A DNA stretch of 52,731 nt from Anaerolineae bacterium (GTDB lineage Bacteria; Chloroflexota; Anaerolineae; Promineifilales; Promineifilaceae): assembly GCA_028277515.1 (NCBI GenBank), contig JANQGC010000253.1, positions 1 to 52,731 of the forward strand, read 5' to 3'. Below are positions 1,601 to 35,573 of the stretch, in pieces. Under the pieces are notes generated by a model, which saw nothing but the letters and a program-made list of their open reading frames with translations, had not been told where the DNA came from and did not search any database. The translations under genes and the position numbers were made by a program. Within the stretch, counting starts at the first letter, position 1. Every line of letters starts with the position of its first letter.

Positions 1601-3490
1601 TTAGGGTATTGGTGCAACGATTCCGATGCTTTGTGCCCATTGAAACCAATCAGTGATAAGTGTACCGGACAAAATTAATCCTATTGCGCCAGTGATCACT
1701 GTTAGCATGGCGAACCACCAGCACCAATCATGAATCGTTTTAGAATTAACATTAAAACCCATTGTCCACCTCCAAAAGAGTTGCGAACGATGCGTTCCGG
1801 TACCTTCAACCATCATTTCTTCAATCTCACGGTGAGACCCATAACGTGAAGATGCAACAATTGTGGCTCCATGCATGGCCAACAACAAAGTTGAACCAAG
1901 CAGGAAGAAGATAGAAATCATGTGAAATGGATTGTAGTAAAAGTTTCCATACAAAACGCTGACATGATTTGTCCATTCCAGCAAAGCCTTAAAACCGTGG
2001 CCGGGTGCTTGTGCCCAATTACCAATAAGAATCGGCCGCACAATGTAAATCACTAAGTAGAATAGAACGGCAGTCAAAAACGCCCAAGCAAGTTTTGATT
2101 TCAAACCGGCTTGTTTAGCACGCAAATAAGTTCTTGCCCACCAGGCGAAAATAGCAATTGTTAAGAAACCTGTTGCTACCAGCCAGGCACCACCCTCATT
2201 CCAAGGAGCAAAAGTCAGCCCATATTGCATTGCCGGTGGGTTTAGGGTCAAGACAAAAAATTCACGGAGAAACAATATTGGGTTGTAGTTCACCTGGTAT
2301 AAATAGTTTTGCAGAATGATGAAGGAGGCCAATAGCCCTGTAATCACGGCAATGGTACCAGGAATACCAAGGTAGACCGGACCAAATTGACCAACTCCAA
2401 AAAGCCGCTTGAACAATTCAATGTTTTTGGGCTTTTTCAGGGCAGTACCTTCAATCCCTCTTCCACCATATTCATATTCGTCAACATCCACAGCTTTTGG
2501 TCGACGACCGCGCCACAGCACGATTGCTACAGTAGCACTGGTCATCATTGTAATACCTTCCCATACGGGTAAACGGTCCCAAAAACTCCAGAACCCTGTC
2601 CAGTTAAAAACAAGCGTTCCTGAGAGGAAAATACACAAATTGGAAAAAAGGACAGCGGCCATTGCCACCCAAAGACCAAGCCGGTGGATACCAACCTCCC
2701 CAATACTATAACCTTGCAAATTTCGCCAGAAGCTATCTACATGCCGCTCGTCAACATCAGGACGGCCCACCGTACTTAGGATAGCCGAACCGTGCATGGC
2801 CAGGATCAGGGTTGAAGTAAATAAGAGAGAGATCCCAATAGCGTGAAAGGGATTATAAAAGAAATTGTAATATTGATAACCTATGTTGGATACCCAATCG
2901 AGATGGTGCGTTATTCCTAAGGAAAACCCATTACCCCAGGACCCCATTGCAATCGGGCGCAGCCATTGCAAAGTAATCCATGAGGTAACAACAGCTCCAT
3001 AGGCCAGGGCAATTTCATAACTCATCCCTAACTTACGGGAGATATCGACTTGCCTTAGCATCCAACCAAGAAAAGCAATTGTGGCAAATAAAACTATCAT
3101 TTGCCAAAAAAAGCCCGGTTCATTGGGTGCAGCTAACCGTAACCCATTACTAATTGGAGGGGGATCAATCCGTGCTCGAAGTATGTTATAGGCGCCTTCA
3201 ACCACCCAGGCCTGGTAAATATAAAAGACGACACCAAAAAATATACCGATCAAAGACATGACCCCAAATGCGCCAACATAAAATCGCCCTATCCAGAAAT
3301 CGAAAATATCGGCACCGAATAGGGCATAAAGAATAGTTTTTCCGGGTTTCTTATATTGCTTTTCTATTTCAGAAAATGGTACTTTTTCGCCCTCCCTAAC
3401 ACGTTCGATTGCGGGTCGATGTTCTTTGAGGGAAGGATCTTGATCTTCAACAGTTGGAGTTACAATATTGGTTGTCACAGTCTTCCTCAC
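1601..3490 (-). CDS. pufLM: Fused type II reaction-centre L-M protein PufLM
   Basis: One 629-residue polypeptide carries an L-like half (about 1-320) and an M-like half (about 350-629). Separate L and M are about 275-320 residues each. By alignment from memory to Rhodobacter, L-half H196 matches the accessory-BChl ligand (L153), H216 the special-pair ligand (L173), and H233 and H269 the iron ligands. In the M half, H523 matches M202, and H540 and H587 the iron ligands. The M182 position is Leu503, which in Chloroflexus-type centres puts a third bacteriopheophytin in place of an accessory BChl. L168 is Phe211. The reading frame opens with GTG at 3490, where no Shine-Dalgarno is seen. A second GTG at 3478 sits 5-6 nt after GAGGA and may be the true start. 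Confidence 0.97.
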   Translation of the reverse strand: MRKTVTTNIVTPTVEDQDPSLKEHRPAIERVREGEKVPFSEIEKQYKKPGKTILYALFGADIFDFWIGRFYVGAFGVMSLIGIFFGVVFYIYQAWVVEGAYNILRARIDPPPISNGLRLAAPNEPGFFWQMIVLFATIAFLGWMLRQVDISRKLGMSYEIALAYGAVVTSWITLQWLRPIAMGSWGNGFSLGITHHLDWVSNIGYQYYNFFYNPFHAIGISLLFTSTLILAMHGSAILSTVGRPDVDERHVDSFWRNLQGYSIGEVGIHRLGLWVAMAAVLFSNLCIFLSGTLVFNWTGFWSFWDRLPVWEGITMMTSATVAIVLWRGRRPKAVDVDEYEYGGRGIEGTALKKPKNIELFKRLFGVGQFGPVYLGIPGTIAVITGLLASFIILQNYLYQVNYNPILFLREFFVLTLNPPAMQYGLTFAPWNEGGAWLVATGFLTIAIFAWWARTYLRAKQAGLKSKLAWAFLTAVLFYLVIYIVRPILIGNWAQAPGHGFKALLEWTNHVSVLYGNFYYNPFHMISIFFLLGSTLLLAMHGATIVASSRYGSHREIEEMMVEGTGTHRSQLFWRWTMGFNVNSKTIHDWCWWFAMLTVITGAIGLILSGTLITDWFQWAQSIGIVAPIP

Positions 3491-6175: not shown

Positions 6176-7138
6176 ATGAGCAAGAAAGAATCGATTCGCA
6201 CCCTAAAAAGATTGCATAAGTATTGTAAGGCGAGTGAAAGAGGTTTTAACACCGTTGCCAACACTGTCAAGAATCGTGGCCTGAAGGTATTGCTGAAAAC
6301 ATATGCCCAACAGCGACACAAAATGGCTAACGATTTGGAAGCAATGATAAAAGAATTGGGAGATAGTGTAACCGACCGGCGCAGTCTATTGGAAATTATT
6401 CATCGGGGGCGAATTATTATTGTGGCCACATTAACAGTTGGTCCCACCGCAGCAGAAAACGTCGCGCTCAAGGAGGCGATGGTGGGGGAAAAGGCTGCTC
6501 TGAAAAATTATCAAAAAGCCTTAACAAAAATTGCAGACCCGGACACAAAAGCTCTGATCCAAAATCAATATGAGACGATTCAAAATACAAGCAGGCAAGT
6601 CAGCCACTTGCGAGGGTTGCCTGGCGAACGCCTGGTCGTTCGGCTTTTCAATTCCGACCAAGACGTCGATACAGCCATTGATGCCTTGGAAATGGTTGGT
6701 TTTTCAAGAAACATGATGGAGGTTGTCGACCTCGATCAAACGGCCGATCCTTATGAAGAGAACAATCGTGTTGTAAGTGAAACTATAATATCAGGGACCA
6801 TTGGAGGAGCTATTTGGGGAGTCTTGTTAGGTGCTGTTGTTGGTTTCAGCTTGTTGTTGATGCCTGGAATTCAGGAAGTTCTAGGTATGAACAGCCCCGT
6901 CACGATGTGGGGTCTGCTGGCTGTTAGCGGGTTACTCTCCGGAGCCTTACTTGGGGCGCTCCTTGGTTTTTTTATCGGTTTGGGAGTTGCCGGAGAAGAT
7001 TCTTATACTTACGAAGCGAGTATGGAGCGCGGCTCAATGATGATTCTTCTCCATACCAATCGTCGCCGCGCCCCGGAAGCATCTCAGATTATGCAAGGCG
7101 TCAATTTAAAATCAATCGCCGGGCAATTAACGCAATAA
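6176..7138 (+). CDS. PA2169/DUF2383-like four-helix protein with glycine-rich membrane domain
   Basis: The 320-residue protein falls into three parts. The first ~140 residues are amphipathic helices of PA2169/DUF2383 type (ferritin-like bundle; starts SKKESIRTLKRLHKYCKASE). Next comes an alpha/beta stretch (RLVVRLFNSDQDVDTAIDALEMVGF) like the domain of general-stress proteins of the YflT/17M type. After that come two strongly hydrophobic glycine-rich segments (SGTIGGAIWGVLLGAVVGF and LLSGALLGALLGFFIGLG) and a short tail. It probably sits in the inner membrane and responds to stress; no reaction is known. A GTG at 6167 is an alternative start. It follows the CarH-like gene after 184 bp on the same strand. 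Confidence 0.65.
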   Translation: MSKKESIRTLKRLHKYCKASERGFNTVANTVKNRGLKVLLKTYAQQRHKMANDLEAMIKELGDSVTDRRSLLEIIHRGRIIIVATLTVGPTAAENVALKEAMVGEKAALKNYQKALTKIADPDTKALIQNQYETIQNTSRQVSHLRGLPGERLVVRLFNSDQDVDTAIDALEMVGFSRNMMEVVDLDQTADPYEENNRVVSETIISGTIGGAIWGVLLGAVVGFSLLLMPGIQEVLGMNSPVTMWGLLAVSGLLSGALLGALLGFFIGLGVAGEDSYTYEASMERGSMMILLHTNRRRAPEASQIMQGVNLKSIAGQLTQ

Positions 7139-7180
7139 TCTGTAGCTCTCCACAAAATCATTATACTTGCTTATTCCCAT

Positions 7181-7654
7181 TTATTCTTCGACAACGAGGC
7201 GTCCTTGCATCCCCGGAAAGTGACCGGGCACTGTACAAATAACGTCATACTCACCAGGTGCCGGGGCAACAAATACATCATTGTATTCACTTGTACCTTC
7301 AACTAGACCAGTATCATACAGAATGATGTCACTATCTGTTTCAGGATCGAATGTCTCCGGCAATGCTACATCGGGCTTGACAATGGCCCAATTATGCTCG
7401 AGTGTTCCATTATTCGTTAATTGAACGGTTACTTGCTGACCCGTTGAAACAGTCCAGATCGGTGGATTTTCCACATTATCTGGGGTATCTCCATAGTAAA
7501 TATCATTTTGAAGGACTTCAATTGTTGCTGATTCAGGTTCTGTATTCTCGGCCGAGCCACCACCCCCGCCACAAGCAGCTAATATCCCGCCAATAAAAAA
7601 TGCCAAAACAAAAATGATTGTAAAAAACTTCAGGTCCTTTTTTTGCAGTTTCAT
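7181..7654 (-). CDS. Auracyanin-like type I blue copper lipoprotein
   Basis: The 157-residue protein has a lipoprotein signal with lipobox LAAC (Cys28) followed by a glycine-rich linker. A cupredoxin domain then carries the type I copper ligands: His in LEHNW, then Cys, His and Met in ICTVPGHFPGMQG. Auracyanins are the membrane-tethered copper proteins of Chloroflexales that shuttle electrons between alternative complex III and the reaction-centre cytochrome. Length, anchor, linker and ligand spacing all fit. It lies in the photosynthesis island, downstream of bchP on the same strand but separated by 147 bp, so it may have its own promoter. Another plastocyanin/azurin relative cannot be excluded. 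Confidence 0.88.
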   Translation of the reverse strand: MKLQKKDLKFFTIIFVLAFFIGGILAACGGGGGSAENTEPESATIEVLQNDIYYGDTPDNVENPPIWTVSTGQQVTVQLTNNGTLEHNWAIVKPDVALPETFDPETDSDIILYDTGLVEGTSEYNDVFVAPAPGEYDVICTVPGHFPGMQGRLVVEE

Positions 7655-29465: not shown

Positions 29466-31079
29466 TTATGTGGTCGGACGCTTTGGTTGATATCCCCAGA
29501 CAATCAGGCCAATTGCAACTACAACAAAACTCAACAGATTCAACCAAATTGGAACCAAATTTCTAGTTAGTATATACAGGGAAAACCCACTCGTGACAAC
29601 GAGCCAGGTAAAAGCAGGGTGAATCCATAAATATTCCTGAAATCGACGTTTGCCCCCAAAAAACCAAAAAGCAACAGTAAAACCCACGGCGATAAGTCCC
29701 CAAAAGGCATTTAATTGAATTACACCCAATAAGAGGAGCGTTGTTATCAAGAAACCAACAGCTCCCATAAGTGTTAACCTAGCCGGGTTTCGCAATTGTA
29801 ATGTTATCCAAAGTGTTGAAAAGCTCAGAAAATAGGAAAATACCAGGGCAATGACAAGAATATCATTGAAGCTGTCAGGAAATATAGGTGGATTCTCAAT
29901 TGGGAAAAGAAAAATCAGGAGCCATAAGATCGCCAGAGGAATGACAAAGCCCAAGAGGAAGATCAAGACAGGTTCATGTAAGGGTCGTTGTTTTTGTCGA
30001 TACCACAGGATAATCCCGATGAGGAGGAGCAAAAAACTTGTCCCCGTTGCAGGATTAGCGAAAAATGGATACCACCAAAAGAGTGCTGCGCCCACCAAGG
30101 GTCCAGCAAAGAAGAATACAACCAAGAACCATTTATCAGCTGGATGGACTCTTAAAGATCCTCCATACATCTTGAGACGATCGGCCGGTATGCGCTTAGC
30201 ACCAATAATTCCCATAACCATTGGCAATAAAACTGCAAAACGCCAGACCCACACCATTGATGGCAACGTAAGATAATACCAACCAATCGCCACAAAAAGG
30301 AGTACCAAAATCATCACATTAAACCCGACTAAAGCGCCTGTATACTTCAACATAAAGAGGACAACCTTGGGTTTCTCACCTTTTTCCATGTTGGCACTTG
30401 TATCGGCTTCCGTAAACAAGGCAATGAGTAAGGGTAATCCAATCCAGGCGGCTGCAAAAGTTAAGGTGGCCTGTAGGCGAATAGGAACAGTTGTTAGCGG
30501 CCATTGCAAGATTGGAACCAAAGACCACGCTGCAGCTATCCACATAAAAATGAAGCTTAAAAAGGCAAAAAGATTATCGGTAGAGAACCGATCAGTTAAG
30601 GATGAGATGGACCAGATGGTCATGCCGGCCCAACTAGTCCTCGCATGGGCATCTGCCTGTGACCAATTAAAAATACTATCTAACCAATCAATAATTATGT
30701 TCCAAGCAAAGATAATACCAAAAGACTTAATTGCTTCAGAATTAGTTCTCTCACGCTCGACAAACCATTGAGGATTAATTTTTTGAATTTCATCACCCGA
30801 TAAAGGACTATAAAATCCTAATTGTAATAATTCATTTGCCTCTTTAAGTGATTGGATCCCACTACATCGAAAAAGTACTTTAATCAATGTCTCTAAGATA
30901 AATCGATCCGTATGTTTTATCTTTCTTTCCCCAGATTCCCAGTGGCCAATTAATTTTCCACTAACACCTATATCCAATAATTCAGCAAGGCGAGATTGGG
31001 TTAAGTAATTACGGGTAGTCGGCATTGGGTCTTTGGTTCTCAACCGATGTTCTTTCAATCTCGTGCCAAAATCGCTCAT
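29466..31079 (-). CDS. HTH protein with polytopic membrane domain, unknown function
   Basis: The first ~95 of 537 residues read as a lambda-repressor-like helix-turn-helix region (LTQSRLAELLDIGVSGKLIG, HWESGERKIKHTD). The rest is hydrophobic, with roughly a dozen predicted membrane helices, some ending in basic clusters. I do not recognise the membrane domain. It lies 151 bp downstream of the ComP-like kinase on the same strand. It could be a membrane-tethered regulator, or perhaps a transporter or sensor linked to the peptide signal. The region is visibly more AT-rich than the sugar operon beside it. Confidence 0.7.
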   Translation of the reverse strand: MSDFGTRLKEHRLRTKDPMPTTRNYLTQSRLAELLDIGVSGKLIGHWESGERKIKHTDRFILETLIKVLFRCSGIQSLKEANELLQLGFYSPLSGDEIQKINPQWFVERERTNSEAIKSFGIIFAWNIIIDWLDSIFNWSQADAHARTSWAGMTIWSISSLTDRFSTDNLFAFLSFIFMWIAAAWSLVPILQWPLTTVPIRLQATLTFAAAWIGLPLLIALFTEADTSANMEKGEKPKVVLFMLKYTGALVGFNVMILVLLFVAIGWYYLTLPSMVWVWRFAVLLPMVMGIIGAKRIPADRLKMYGGSLRVHPADKWFLVVFFFAGPLVGAALFWWYPFFANPATGTSFLLLLIGIILWYRQKQRPLHEPVLIFLLGFVIPLAILWLLIFLFPIENPPIFPDSFNDILVIALVFSYFLSFSTLWITLQLRNPARLTLMGAVGFLITTLLLLGVIQLNAFWGLIAVGFTVAFWFFGGKRRFQEYLWIHPAFTWLVVTSGFSLYILTRNLVPIWLNLLSFVVVAIGLIVWGYQPKRPTT

Positions 31080-31230: not shown

Positions 31231-33501
31231 TCAAATTTTATTGGCTTGATTAGCTGCTTGCCATGATAAGCTGATACATGTGCCCTTTCCTAGTATTGAG
31301 TCAACTTGCAGTGCGGCATCAATAAAGGAAGCACGCTCATGCATATGGGCTAAACCAAAATGATTGTTGTTGCGCAATTGATTGAAATTAAGTTGGCCAT
31401 CAATCGCAAATCCTACCCCATCATCGGCTACAGTGAATTGGATATATCCGGATTCTAGTTGTCCTTGTACTTGGATGATATGGGCTTCAGCATGGTCTAA
31501 AGCATTCTCAATAGCTAACTGAACGATTCGGAGCATATTCTGCTCGACTTCGACGCTATAACGCACTATTGAGTAATTGACGTCAAATGTGATCGCAACT
31601 TCATCCTGGTGCAGTTGATTTAAGTTATCAATTAACTCATCTAAGGCTGCCCAAAGACCAAAATCCAATAATTTAGGTCTTAATGTAACCATAGTTTGCC
31701 TGATGCGTGTAACAAGGGATTGATATATAGACTCAAGATGAGGATTTTCAGCTGAAACTGCTTTCGATAGCAAAGCAAGATTGTTCAATATCTCATCATG
31801 CAGCAATCGTGCAAGATTAGCCTTTTCCACTTCTTGATGATCTATACTGTTCTTGTATAAAGCATGTAGCTGTTCCGATTGTTGAATATTGGTAAGCGCA
31901 ATGCTGATCTGGTTTGCCAGTAATTTTAGAAGCGTTATTTCTTCTTGCCGGTACTCATCATCAGGATCATGTTTTCCCAGGAGCCATAAACCGATCAGTT
32001 TATTTTCAATTCGTAATGGTATTACAAGATACGCCCAGGAAACAATGGCCGTTATTCTGGACTGTATATGTTCGTCAAAGTCTTTATCAAGCGGTGAGAA
32101 TCCCAGACGAGTTGGAACATCTGCTTTGGTTACACCATCAACATATAAAACATCACAATGGCCCTGGTCTTTTAAAAGAAGTAAAACGGATTGTTTAATT
32201 AATAAACTCGGGACAATTTCCTCTTTAACTGTTTGAACCAATTGTTGTCTGGTGGAACTTGTAACGATGTGGGTTGTAAAGTGCTCAACGATTTGATCGT
32301 ATGGAACAGGTATTCCCAACAACTTTCTTTCAACAAAACGCTGGAAAGGGCGGAACCCAAAAGCCGTTATTAGACTAGCTACCAGGACGATTATTGCATT
32401 GAAAATAATTGAGTTCTCCGGCAAATTCTGAAGCCTAACAATGAGGCTCATAAAAATGGTTAAGATAATGAGCAACAAAAGAAACAAATAGTAGGTAGCA
32501 ATTCGGTTTGTTCTTAATTCAAGCCACCCGGTTGGACGCCGATAAGCCGTATAAAAATAAACAGCAGGTAATGCAGGCAATGTTAACAAAGCTAATGCCC
32601 CTGTAAGTGGTTGAATATAAAAAAAGCTAATGACAAAAACGATGAGAAGAGGAACAATAGCGAATAATAAAGTAACCACAAGTAATTTTATGGGCGAGCG
32701 ATAACTCGGCTGCAAGAAGTAATGCAAGATAATTAGCAAAACCGTTCCGCCTAAGGCTATTAATGCGGCAATAAAGTAGGCATTAAGTGGAAGTAACAAT
32801 AACCATTCAGAGACCGCAAGAGCTATCCCACCTAGATACAAAAAAATCCATATATAAACCGGCAATTTTTTAAGTGGAACGGGAAAAACCCAGTGAAGAT
32901 GCAAGTAAACGGGGATGCATAGCCAAAGTACGGAACGCATTACAATGGCACTCAGCCAAACATGGTGGCTTGATACGGTTCCAGCTATTAGCCAGATAGC
33001 TGTTAAATAATAAAAAAGAATCAGCAGCCACCATCGAAGATCTTTTGGACGAATCAGAATAAACGTAGCCACACCAGCAAAAAAGAAAAAATAAGCTAAC
33101 CACCAAATGTCAATAACTCTTCCCCATACCTCATTGGAGTTTATACCTGGAATTTCCCACTCTATATCCTTTATCTCCCCATCACGTATTACCGAAATAG
33201 GTATGGTTTGACCAGGTACAGCATCTTCAAAGAGCAGTCGGTACAAGTTTGGCCGAAAATCGGATTTCCAGTTGACATCTCCGACACTAACAATGAGGTC
33301 ACCTTCTTCAATAATCTGTTTCGGGTTGGACACTGTGTAGACAGTTTCAACTTGTCCCGTTGCACTGTTGATGTAAATACCTGCATATGGAACAACCCAA
33401 AACTTGGCAAAAGTGTAACCAACTAAAATAAGCAAAGTGAATAAAGTAATACCTGAATCGACTGGGTTTTGGAATTTTGATGCGGCACTCAATATTTTCA
33501 T
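31231..33501 (-). CDS. comP: ComP-like membrane histidine kinase (PDZ, multi-TM, GAF, HisKA_3)
   Basis: The 756-residue protein has TM1 (about 18-38), then a PDZ-like extracytoplasmic loop (EEGDLIVSVGDVNW, VPGQTIPISVIRDGEI). About nine more membrane helices, a GAF-like domain (about 410-530) and a HisKA_3 domain with phospho-acceptor His568 in ARLLHDEILNNLALL follow. An ATPase domain (VQLAIENALDHAEAH, VADDGVGF) closes it. Bacillus ComP has the same order of a PDZ-like loop, many TM helices and HisKA_3 kinase, and senses the isoprenylated ComX peptide. The gene diverges from the small ComX-like peptide gene, with 132 bp between. NarL-type kinases with GAF are common, so the ComP call rests on the PDZ loop plus the neighbours. 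Confidence 0.85.
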   Translation of the reverse strand: MKILSAASKFQNPVDSGITLFTLLILVGYTFAKFWVVPYAGIYINSATGQVETVYTVSNPKQIIEEGDLIVSVGDVNWKSDFRPNLYRLLFEDAVPGQTIPISVIRDGEIKDIEWEIPGINSNEVWGRVIDIWWLAYFFFFAGVATFILIRPKDLRWWLLILFYYLTAIWLIAGTVSSHHVWLSAIVMRSVLWLCIPVYLHLHWVFPVPLKKLPVYIWIFLYLGGIALAVSEWLLLLPLNAYFIAALIALGGTVLLIILHYFLQPSYRSPIKLLVVTLLFAIVPLLIVFVISFFYIQPLTGALALLTLPALPAVYFYTAYRRPTGWLELRTNRIATYYLFLLLLIILTIFMSLIVRLQNLPENSIIFNAIIVLVASLITAFGFRPFQRFVERKLLGIPVPYDQIVEHFTTHIVTSSTRQQLVQTVKEEIVPSLLIKQSVLLLLKDQGHCDVLYVDGVTKADVPTRLGFSPLDKDFDEHIQSRITAIVSWAYLVIPLRIENKLIGLWLLGKHDPDDEYRQEEITLLKLLANQISIALTNIQQSEQLHALYKNSIDHQEVEKANLARLLHDEILNNLALLSKAVSAENPHLESIYQSLVTRIRQTMVTLRPKLLDFGLWAALDELIDNLNQLHQDEVAITFDVNYSIVRYSVEVEQNMLRIVQLAIENALDHAEAHIIQVQGQLESGYIQFTVADDGVGFAIDGQLNFNQLRNNNHFGLAHMHERASFIDAALQVDSILGKGTCISLSWQAANQANKI

Positions 33502-33633
33502 AACTTAACTTATCCACCACATTGATTAAAGGCAAGGAACTAAGGAGGTGATAATTATCAGTAATAGGTTTATCTAACCAATTCTAACCAAATAAGTGAA
33601 TAAATGTATTAGTGTAAAAAGGAGAAATTTAAA

Positions 33634-33786
33634 ATGTTAGCAAATATGGAAGCTTTCTATGTGCAGCTCAATTCAGAAGATCATTCTACAAGCATCCCTA
33701 TAGGTGATCTTGTAAATGTAACACATATGAATCTTAAAGAACTGGCGTTGCTCACTAGCGAACTTACATGGAGCATGTGGGGCTAA
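33634..33786 (+). CDS. comX: ComX-like peptide pheromone precursor
   Basis: The 50-codon ORF starts MLANMEAFYVQLNS and ends LALLTSELTWSMWG. AAGGAG lies 9 nt before the ATG. ComX precursors are about 55 residues with a C-terminal signal peptide in which a Trp near the end is isoprenylated by ComQ. Here Trp46 and Trp49 lie 5 and 2 residues from the end. The sequence shows no signal peptide, as in ComX, and no other function is apparent. The next gene is an isoprenyl transferase on the same strand, the opposite neighbour is a ComP-like kinase, and a NarL-type regulator closes the locus. Confidence 0.78.
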   Translation: MLANMEAFYVQLNSEDHSTSIPIGDLVNVTHMNLKELALLTSELTWSMWG

Positions 33787-33809
33787 AAAAATAGCCTGCT
33801 AGTTTTTTT
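33785..33809 (+). terminator. Weak A/T-rich terminator or attenuator after the ComX-like gene
   Basis: A7-TAG (33785-33794) can pair with CTA-G-T7 (33799-33809), giving a short hairpin ending in a seven-T run. An alternative GGCTA/TAGCC stem (33781-33796) also precedes the T-run. Partial termination here would leave more comX than comQ transcript. Confidence 0.45.
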
Positions 33810-33825
33810 GCGTTCAAGCAAAGTG

Positions 33826-33860
33826 AAAGGGCTGGCCGACAAATTGTTGGCCAGTCCTTT
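33826..33860 (+). promoter_or_regulatory. Long stem-loop directly before the ComQ-like gene
   Basis: AAAGGGCTGGCC (33826-33837) pairs with GGCCAGTCCTTT (33849-33860) with one G-T pair, and the loop can close further. It ends two bases before the GGAG ribosome site of comQ (33863-33866) and about 12 nt before the ATG, so it could limit or stabilise translation of comQ. It has no T-run after it. Confidence 0.6.
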
Positions 33861-33872
33861 CTGGAGATAACA

Positions 33873-34802
33873 ATGAACATTTATGAAGCAACAGCATCTT
33901 ATCTGAGTAGTCTTTTCCCCACTCAAGAATGGCCTTATATGCAAAAGCTCATTAATAGGGCCAGAGCTAACAAACCACACAATTGGCAATTACCATTTGT
34001 TACTTGTGAAGCTGTTGGGGGGGAATTAGAGGAAGCAGTGCCGGGCGCGGCCGCAATCGCTTGCCTACAAATCAGTATCTTACTTATTGATGACCTACTT
34101 GATGAAGATCCGCGTGGTGAATATCATAACCTTGGAACGGCTCAAACTGCCAATCTTGCGGCCGGTTTCCAAGCTGTTGGTCTTGATGCTGTCTCAAAGT
34201 GTGATGCGAAACCACAAACCAAATTGCTTATTCTCCAACACTTAAACCAAATGCTACTTACAACGACTTTCGGGCAACATCTTGACATTCATAATCCCAG
34301 CAATGAATTGGATTATTGGAAACTAGTACGTACTAAAAGCACGCCTTTTTTCAGCACAGCATTTTATATTGGCGCTCTTCTGGGACAGGCAACAGAAATT
34401 GTAACAAAAAACATCCGACATCTAGGTGAATTGTATGGGGAAATGATCCAGATCCATGATGATATTAATGATGTTCTAGCTGTACCTGCAAACCCTGATT
34501 GGATAATGGGGCGCTTACCACTGCCATTATTATTTGCTCAAGTTGTCAAGCATCCGGAGCGGGAGCGTTTTATCAATTTGCGCTCGGAAATTACTAACCC
34601 GGACGCATTGCGAGAGGCACAAACTATTTTAATTCGTTGTGGTGCCATCAGCTATTCCATTGCCCATCTTATTGAGCGGCACAATAAGATGCAAAAGCTG
34701 CTGGAATCTACTTCACTCATACATCGACAGCAGCTATCAGGATTGCTTCAGACCGTCATTGAGCCAGTGAATAGATTGTTGGAAAAATCAAAGTTGATTT
34801 GA
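33873..34802 (+). CDS. comQ: ComQ-like isoprenyl transferase
   Basis: The 309-residue all-helical polyprenyl-synthase fold carries both aspartate-rich sites, DDLLDE at 73-78 and DDIND at 196-200, and GQHLDI (134-139). KSTPFF (about 155) fills the usual KT..LF position. The length matches ComQ (about 290-310). ComQ attaches a farnesyl or geranyl group to Trp of ComX in the cytoplasm. The call depends on context: a Trp-ending small peptide is encoded 86 bp upstream and a ComP-like kinase lies beyond. An ordinary short-chain prenyl-diphosphate synthase is the alternative, but it would not need this neighbourhood. Confidence 0.85.
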   Translation: MNIYEATASYLSSLFPTQEWPYMQKLINRARANKPHNWQLPFVTCEAVGGELEEAVPGAAAIACLQISILLIDDLLDEDPRGEYHNLGTAQTANLAAGFQAVGLDAVSKCDAKPQTKLLILQHLNQMLLTTTFGQHLDIHNPSNELDYWKLVRTKSTPFFSTAFYIGALLGQATEIVTKNIRHLGELYGEMIQIHDDINDVLAVPANPDWIMGRLPLPLLFAQVVKHPERERFINLRSEITNPDALREAQTILIRCGAISYSIAHLIERHNKMQKLLESTSLIHRQQLSGLLQTVIEPVNRLLEKSKLI

Positions 34803-34883
34803 AAAGTAATCGGGGATTGGAGCAGTCATCTTCCCTTCATCCCAACGGAATATGTCAAAGATTTGTGGCCAGACCATTTTCAA

Positions 34884-35573
34884 TCAACCGTCATCGTGAA
34901 AACCGAACTCTTCTTCCGGGGTAATTAAACCGAGAAGACGAGCCTTAGCAACCGCAGATGCTCGCGTCTTTACACCTAATTGAGAATATACCCTTCTCAT
35001 TAAATTACGATATGTTGAATGAGCGATATTTAGCATTTTTGCCAGTTCAGTCATAGGTACATCAGGATAAGCAGCACAAAGAGATAAAGCTTCTAGCTGA
35101 CGAGTCGTTAGAGCGGGTTTTGAATTAGCCCCACTCAAAAACAATTGGTGGGCTTGTTGACTTAAATGAACCCCTCCCCGTGATACTGAGCGAACAACGG
35201 ATTCCAAATCCTCCAGAACTTGATAATCGTCTTTGACAATAAATCCTTTAGCGCCCGCATCCATGGCTATCCTTATGAGTGTGCGCTGGCAATGCATTGA
35301 AATTATTAAAACGTTCAGCTCCGGATATTGTCTCAAAAGCTGAGGCAGAACGTATAGAATTGGATATGGATTAGAGTTACAAGCAGAAGTCGGGACATCT
35401 AGATCTAATAGAAGAATATCAATCCGATTTTCCGCAAGCGATATTTCAAGTTCTTCACCAGTTCGTGCAACTGCGGCAATGCTTATATCCGGCACGTTTT
35501 CTAACCGATATCGATAACCATCAATAGAAGGCTGATGATCATCAAGTATTGCCACGTTCAGTTTTGTTACCAT
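34884..35573 (-). CDS. comA: ComA-like NarL/LuxR-type response regulator
   Basis: The 229-residue protein has a receiver domain (residues 1-125) with DD at 11-12, Asp57 as phospho-acceptor in LLLDLDVP and Lys in FIVKDD. The C-terminus is a LuxR helix-turn-helix (LTTRQLEALSLCAAYPDVPMTELAK... with GVKTRASAVAKA). It is the expected partner of the HisKA_3 kinase at 31231-33501. It is convergent with comQ, 81 bp apart, rather than downstream of comP as in Bacillus. GAGG lies 8 nt before the ATG. Confidence 0.85.
   Translation of the reverse strand: MVTKLNVAILDDHQPSIDGYRYRLENVPDISIAAVARTGEELEISLAENRIDILLLDLDVPTSACNSNPYPILYVLPQLLRQYPELNVLIISMHCQRTLIRIAMDAGAKGFIVKDDYQVLEDLESVVRSVSRGGVHLSQQAHQLFLSGANSKPALTTRQLEALSLCAAYPDVPMTELAKMLNIAHSTYRNLMRRVYSQLGVKTRASAVAKARLLGLITPEEEFGFHDDG

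Follow-up and report, generated by a model that had tools for sequence, protein, structure and literature searches.

At the locus described here, a histidine kinase gene stands back to back with the gene for a small precursor peptide, which is followed by the gene for an enzyme of the trans-prenyl-synthase fold and then, on the opposite strand, by a response regulator gene (Table 1). The locus lies within a stretch of DNA of 52,731 nucleotides from an Anaerolineae bacterium, which we call the window. A preliminary description of this DNA had read the same four open reading frames, all of which we recovered with identical coordinates, as the parts list of a Bacillus ComQXPA quorum-sensing system. 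It had also noted AAGGAG before the peptide gene, and AAAGGAG, a good ribosome site, does lie just ahead of the start codon. The GAF domain of the kinase, the fifth gene and the hairpin listed below are additions to that description.

Table 1. Features of the locus and their positions in the window
Feature	Position	Strand	Product or sequence	Remark
Fifth, frequent gene	29466..31079	-		behind the kinase gene
Kinase gene	31231..33501	-	756 aa	predicted receptor of the peptide signal
Divergent-promoter-region element	33538..33565	.	plus strand AAGGAGGTGATAATTATCAG; minus strand -10-like box, then CACCTCCTT	
Precursor peptide gene	33634..33786	+	50 aa; MLANMEAFYVQL...LTSELTWSMWG	predicted prenylation at Trp46 and/or Trp49
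Intergenic hairpin	33787..33872	+	17-pair stem GAAAGGGCTGGCCGACA / TGTTGGCCAGTCCTTTC	just ahead of the enzyme ribosome site
Trans-prenyl-synthase-fold enzyme gene	33873..34802	+	309 aa	predicted Trp peptide prenyltransferase, ComQ-like in role
NarL/LuxR-type response regulator gene	34884..35573	-	229 aa	converges on the enzyme gene

The genome had been called phototrophic, and this holds because PF00124 matches two stretches of a reaction-centre gene in the window, which also contains CytoC_RC and PUCC. The reaction-centre gene (1601-3490) carries its two Photo_RC stretches in one frame and sits beside CytoC_RC (560-1528); in G022, the sole matching genome among 21 Chloroflexota sampled, the two Photo_RC halves are separate frames. 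No reaction-centre match was found in three other genomes that carry the enzyme, G001, G021 and G028.

The four-gene set recurs in other Chloroflexota. A single genome scan with the window enzyme as query recovered 25 related loci, 24 of them distinct, whose titles all name Chloroflexota, Chloroflexi or Anaerolineae taxa; the database holds 1,530 relatives of the enzyme, and among the 120 matches listed those with a named organism come from the same taxa. L013, with gene coordinates and scores equal to those of L012, was left out of alignments A1-A4 and of the trees, and L025, cut by a contig end, was left out of A1. The arrangement first noted in the window, with the kinase gene divergent and the regulator gene convergent, is largely that of its relatives: a kinase homologue is present at 24 of the 25 loci (all but L009) and directly divergent at 23, and a regulator homologue is present at 24 (L025 ends before it) and directly convergent at 21. 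L009, L023 and L024 depart from this gene order, and the L008 kinase is split over two frames. When neighbouring ORFs of at least 90 aa were counted in flanks of about 6 kb (less at several loci), the most frequent companion beyond enzyme, kinase and regulator was the homologue of the fifth gene, found behind the kinase at 13 of the 25 loci as it is in the window, and the next sense-looking cluster was confined to 6 loci; no recurrent protease, exporter, transporter or immunity gene appeared within these limits. In genome samples of the class and of the phylum, the enzyme was detected at E<=1e-40 in 26 of 396 and 6 of 400 genomes, respectively, and the gene set is not universal in Chloroflexota. 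A tblastn search of plasmids with the enzyme gave three weak partial matches, in records of Prevotella, Phocaeicola and Bacteroides.

The preliminary description had staked its reading on the retention of a Trp peptide beside the enzyme in relatives, and such a peptide is kept at 25/25 related loci, 24 of them found by the first scan and L003 through a frame with an internal ATG. The peptides begin near MQxFY and finish in or near WxxW. In an alignment of the window peptide with those of 24 loci, all of them precursors of about 50-70 aa with a WxxW near the C-terminus, the only invariant residues are Met5, Trp46 and Trp49, the latter two being the candidate residues proposed earlier, and Phe8 is conserved in at least 90%. 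A database search with the peptide profile returned 39 proteins, a number that includes some of the query peptides themselves; 37 of the 39 contain WxxW, and the other two stop before the second Trp. As a chance control, which covers the type I peptide motif only, M[QEKH]x[FY]...WxxW was sought in all six frames of the window and the 25 loci (339,685 bases, 25,127 stop-to-stop segments), and it gave 26 matches, one per sequence and always 44-385 bases upstream of the enzyme. This control rules out a chance ORF as the peptide. The tail that follows WxxW varies from 0 to 16 residues across the 25 aligned peptides. ComQ RO-E-2 is described, in an excerpted source, as requiring a Trp at position 2-4 from the end; only 9 of the 25 peptides, including that of the window, have one there in the encoded sequence (tails of 0, 1 or 3), so the remaining peptides would need trimming or another rule. 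Distances among the peptides correlate with those of the sensor half of the kinase (0.68), its kinase half (0.63) and the enzyme (0.73) in 19 sequences (the window and 18 loci), and since these correlations are not separable from shared descent, we do not count them as evidence of peptide-kinase coevolution.

The enzyme matches PF00348 (Pfam, E 8.8e-17) and has the two DDxxD sites attributed to it, at residues 73-77 (FARM) and 196-200 (SARM). We compared its residues across 48 Chloroflexota enzymes (26 of type I, the window's among them, 18 of the type II variant described below and 4 paralogues), 21 canonical synthases (20 from ten locus-carrying genomes and one metagenome protein), and 13 proteins comprising ComQ and its close relatives. 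The hallmarks of canonical synthases are the GKRxRP motif, an RRG after the FARM and a GK loop after the SARM, whose residues we take, from work on farnesyl diphosphate synthases, to be IPP-binding. The Arg-Pro of GKRxRP is present in 20/21 canonical synthases, and the RR of RRG and the loop Lys each in 21/21; all three are absent from the window enzyme, found in 0/48 Chloroflexota enzymes, and likewise in 0/13 of ComQ and its close relatives. The loop is six residues shorter in 46/48 Chloroflexota enzymes and in 11/13 of the ComQ group, the rest being shorter by 5 or 7, and the FARM DDxxD is kept in 46/48 and 13/13, respectively. With its FARM kept, its IPP-binding signatures lost and its loop short like that of Bacillus ComQ, the enzyme looks like a peptide prenyltransferase and not a chain-elongating synthase, as judged from its sequence; the pairing of a synthase fold with a lost IPP-condensing site is a trait of trans-IDS-like enzymes that prenylate peptide Trp. 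An enzyme that only makes free prenyl diphosphates, the outcome against which the preliminary description had measured itself, fits poorly with the loss of IPP-condensation residues in this comparison. Nor is it the housekeeping enzyme, since canonical synthases are encoded elsewhere in all 10 genomes examined (those of 10 of the 25 loci); together with the lost IPP site, this rules out a housekeeping prenyl synthase.

The SARM is where the Chloroflexota enzymes and ComQ part company. Its first residue is D in 26/26 type I and 18/18 type II enzymes, and in 48/48 Chloroflexota enzymes overall, whereas it is N or G in 13/13 of ComQ and its close relatives; the FARM of ComQ is thus present in the window enzyme and the pseudo-SARM NDxxx/GDxxx is not. 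In ComQ, an N-to-D change in this motif drastically lowers activity, and ND or GD is needed there (PMC5331326, in excerpt). In PalQ, a proven Trp prenyltransferase, the two SARM Asp are conserved and non-essential, and the double mutant is still active (PMC10853753, in excerpt). The SARM therefore speaks against strict ComQ identity, and less against Trp prenylation.

Phylogenetic trees lead to a similar separation. In both a quick tree of 82 rows (without the fragments L087 and L088 and without repeat entries of genes already included) and a careful tree of 59 rows, for which 23 of the 82 were dropped as long branches or near repeats, three paralogues and the B. velezensis ComQ among the former, the canonical synthases, ComQ and the Chloroflexota enzymes form three separate groups. 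In the careful tree, canonical synthases fall on one side with branch values of 97/92, ComQ groups at 100/96 and the Chloroflexota enzymes at 100/100. A sister-group relation between ComQ and the Chloroflexota enzymes depends on a root placed among the synthases, and this reading is provisional because of long branches and skewed composition. The trees comprise synthases, ComQ and Chloroflexota enzymes, with PalQ and ChrPC absent from them.

A second, type II variant of the locus was also found, in which a peptide of the form MTIxxFNxLL...LRQLT...GWxGW is followed by the enzyme and then the kinase, all on one strand, and many loci from the class and phylum genome samples have this gene order. 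Of 21 loci examined, 15 satisfied a rule for Trp-ending peptides, and two of the 15, L069 and L070, are type I (by gene order; they are labelled II in the trees by locus number and counted as type I in the residue comparison); the misses are L075, L078, L079 (found by other rule), L082, L083, L087 (almost no upstream sequence). More distant enzyme paralogues occur in 3 of 10 genomes (L064-L067), with kinase-like frames on L065, L066 and L067. On L065, in the genome of L003, a 70-aa peptide ending in KNWG (7044-7256, minus strand; weak match to Frankia_peptide, E 0.041) adjoins a distant enzyme paralogue and a PAS/GAF kinase, a layout that resembles PalXQP.

The kinase had been described as a PDZ, multi-TM, HisKA_3 protein, of which the multi-TM character stands, the PDZ_2 match is weak (E 0.018) and HisKA_3 has no match in the window protein at E<=1; the firmer Pfam matches are HATPase_c (1e-7) and GAF (9.2e-6). 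Its layout is like that of Anoxybacillus ComP. In the window kinase, a first TM is followed by a loop of some 100 aa that has the weak PDZ match, and then by eight further hydrophobic peaks, GAF, an H568 box and HATPase; ComP shares the first TM, the loop with a PDZ match, the eight peaks and the HATPase, but no GAF match is listed for it. By a crude rule, hydrophobic peaks number 9 in the window kinase, 9 in Anoxybacillus ComP and 5-10 in five other kinases. In the kinase alignment (A3, from which L001, L006, L008 and L024, with long or split ORFs, and L009, with no kinase, were also left out), HATPase is matched in 20/20, HisKA_3 in 18/20 and PDZ_2 at E<=0.1 in 5/20, and His568 is invariant; the ComP-type combination of an N-terminal TM part, HisKA_3 and HATPase is thus found in the family, the window kinase itself being without the HisKA_3 match. 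The loop is the least conserved part of the 20 kinases, with a mean identity of 0.35 vs 0.45-0.47 for the GAF, dimerisation and ATPase parts. The assignment of the regulator to the NarL type is borne out by a receiver domain (Response_reg, E 3.4e-10) and a weak GerE match (0.0035, under the Pfam cut-off), which is the ComA-type pairing of a receiver with a GerE/LuxR DNA-binding domain, and by NCBIfam matches along the full length, MadR among them (2.1e-20 for residues 6-217, below the cut-off of that model). Asp57 is invariant among the 19 aligned regulators (A4, the window and 18 loci; L004, L013, L015, L018, L019, L023 and L025 left out). The product of the fifth gene has a helix-turn-helix at its N-terminus (HTH_31, E 0.0056, under the cut-off) and a long hydrophobic part, and it may act as a second regulator or be linked to transport.

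The DNA between the genes is also conserved in form. The hairpin between the peptide and enzyme genes has an MFE of -35.0 and a z of -5.0 in the window, and the same spacer folds with z < -2 against shuffles in 22 of 25 cases (the window and 24 loci; the misses are L015, L019 and L023). A stem of at least 10 pairs, G-U allowed, is present in 24 of the 25 spacers, with L023 lacking a stem and that of L015 placed far ahead of the enzyme, and the letters of the stem vary between loci while the pairing is kept. Support for the hairpin comes from the shuffle test, a MAFFT alignment of 16 hairpin regions having misplaced several stems, and comparison with Rfam gave no match. The hairpin probably holds the level of peptide mRNA above that of enzyme mRNA. 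A terminator-like stretch, TAAAAAAATAGCCTGCTAGTTTTTTT (33786-33815), lies right at the peptide stop, before the main hairpin. Ahead of the peptide, 79-119 bases before it, an element of the GGAGGTG type resembling AAAGGAGGTG...ATTATAGC occurs in 21 of 25 cases (the window and 20 of 24 loci; the misses are L009, L022, L023 and L024), with about 0.04 expected by chance per 120 bases. Read on the kinase strand, it appears as GCTATAAT...CACCTCCTTT in many loci and as a -10-like box followed by CACCTCC in most. It looks like a -10 box, and a transcript from it would open with an anti-Shine-Dalgarno sequence, upstream of the kinase gene; the element is a possible translational switch.

The resemblance to ComQXPA can now be weighed. 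We used as references a complete ComQXPA locus from an Anoxybacillus plasmid and a second from a B. velezensis plasmid with its kinase annotated in pieces, with E-values computed for a seven-protein set. The window proteins share 30% identity with the Anoxybacillus ComQ over 134 aa, 21% with ComP over 667 and 25% with ComA over 221, and the matches to B. velezensis are weaker (ComQ E 0.006, ComA 4e-4). Like the Bacillus system, the locus has a small precursor with Trp near its C-terminus, an enzyme that keeps the FARM but has lost the IPP site and about six residues of the loop after the SARM region, and a NarL-type regulator. At the same time, ComQXPA runs comQ-comX-comP-comA, four adjacent genes on one strand, while the window has a divergent kinase, a convergent regulator and the peptide before the enzyme; unlike ComX, its peptide has a WxxW with two invariant Trp and leaves PF05952 unmatched; and its SARM is DDxxD where ComQ has ND or GD. 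PF05952 matched 0/25 peptides at E<=10, with HMMER filters dropping most matches above about 0.1, and did match the ComX of L027 (E 2.7e-20) and L026 (2.3e-5) as positive controls; a ComX Pfam search of five carrier genomes gave 0/5 matches but carries no weight, as control genomes were likewise without a match. Thus, of the proposal that this is the ComQXPA parts list, a system that works like ComQXPA is well supported by architecture, but strict membership is not, given the unmatched PF05952, the DDxxD SARM, the gene order and the separate tree groups.

Two other systems are close in kind. PalQ is the C-terminal Trp prenyltransferase of Paenibacillus alvei, and PalXQP, like the window, brings together a peptide, a synthase-fold prenyltransferase with retained SARM Asp and a histidine kinase (PMC10853753, in excerpt). 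Compared by description, the window set differs in including a regulator, and its peptide is shorter than PalX, whose leader is of the NHLP type and whose Trp is strictly C-terminal; the window peptide has two Trp with one residue after them. The P domain of ChrPC is a Trp RiPP prenyltransferase, and ComQ, PalQ and ChrPC P have been classed together as trans-IDS-like enzymes whose target is a peptide Trp (PMC13290415, in excerpt). The window enzyme is likened to ChrPC P in type, by description; unlike the window enzyme, the ChrPC P domain works with a separate cyclase (C) domain.

Overall, we consider it probable that this locus encodes a Trp-prenylated peptide signalling system, likely ComQXPA-like in its working and belonging to a distinct Chloroflexota family. 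Because a two-Trp peptide, an enzyme predicted to attach prenyl groups, a kinase and a regulator are conserved as a set, signalling likely proceeds much as in Bacillus ComQXPA, and from this we infer prenylation, export and sensing. The general pathway can be outlined as follows. The conserved 50-aa precursor is encoded at the locus. A diphosphate, whether geranyl, farnesyl or longer, would be bound at the DDxxD of the enzyme, which, lacking an IPP site, would transfer the prenyl group to Trp46 and/or Trp49 of the WxxW. Other proteins would then cleave and export the C-terminal part and, by analogy with ComP, the membrane half of the divergent kinase would bind the processed peptide. A phosphate would pass from His568 of the kinase to Asp57 of the convergent regulator, which would in turn switch its target genes; those under the divergent promoter of the locus are perhaps among them.

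It is unlikely, in our judgement, that the peptide is instead a prenylated antibiotic or other RiPP effector, with a kinase and regulator that only control or self-sense its production, and not mainly a population signal. PalX, with a kinase beside it, has been called a RiPP (PMC10853753, in excerpt), and prenylation can raise the antimicrobial activity of peptides (PMC13290415, in excerpt); against this, no immunity or transporter gene recurs among the ORFs of at least 90 aa in the roughly 6-kb flanks of the 25 loci, and kinase and peptide form a divergent pair at 23 of them. A PF00348 fold with two Asp motifs, in a window with photosynthesis genes, might also suggest an enzyme that makes a free small isoprenoid (a terpene, free prenyl-Trp, or a quinone or bacteriochlorophyll side chain) beside an unrelated regulatory peptide, as photosynthetic pigments use prenyl chains. 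We regard this as very unlikely, with the IPP-binding signatures lost in every Chloroflexota enzyme compared, canonical synthases elsewhere in each genome examined, no reaction-centre match in the carriers G001, G021 and G028, and a WxxW peptide beside the enzyme at every locus. A true ComQXPA system gained from Firmicutes by gene transfer would account for the same four functions and the similar kinase layout, but it is the least credible of these alternatives and is disfavoured by the peptides' missing ComX matches and the well-separated enzyme groups, and by the differences in order, orientation and SARM.

A Trp-prenylated peptide signalling system thus remains our preferred interpretation, and its best reading from the sequences is a sister or parallel family of prenyl-Trp peptide signalling with a second, operon-type variant. 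We would go further only tentatively, giving somewhat less than an even chance to the idea that Chloroflexota own an independent or very ancient prenyl-Trp pheromone branch, in which a WxxW signal, possibly carrying a prenyl group on each Trp, is made by prenyltransferases that retain an Asp-rich SARM, with two gene architectures and with divergent paralogues present alongside them in these genomes. The view that ComQXPA is known from Firmicutes agrees with the 2014 census of Dogsa et al., which, in the excerpted account, found comQXPA-like loci in Firmicutes only, and none outside them, among 2,620 complete and 6,970 draft genomes (PMC4008528). We found no description of such Chloroflexota loci in the open-licence literature, covered mostly at title and abstract level, with preprints and subscription papers outside its scope.

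Anaerolineae are abundant and largely uncultured and, to our knowledge, cell-cell signalling among them is hardly known. If the interpretation advanced here is correct, the locus would provide a concrete, testable pheromone for Anaerolineae, and would add to the predicted Trp prenyltransferases a new set whose natural substrates carry paired Trp, of use in lipidating peptides. It would also make it possible to study whether signalling by prenylated peptides has a single origin, older than the split of the phyla, or several, and if the Chloroflexota branch is indeed independent or ancient, prenyl-peptide signalling would be a multi-phylum language and not a Firmicutes invention.
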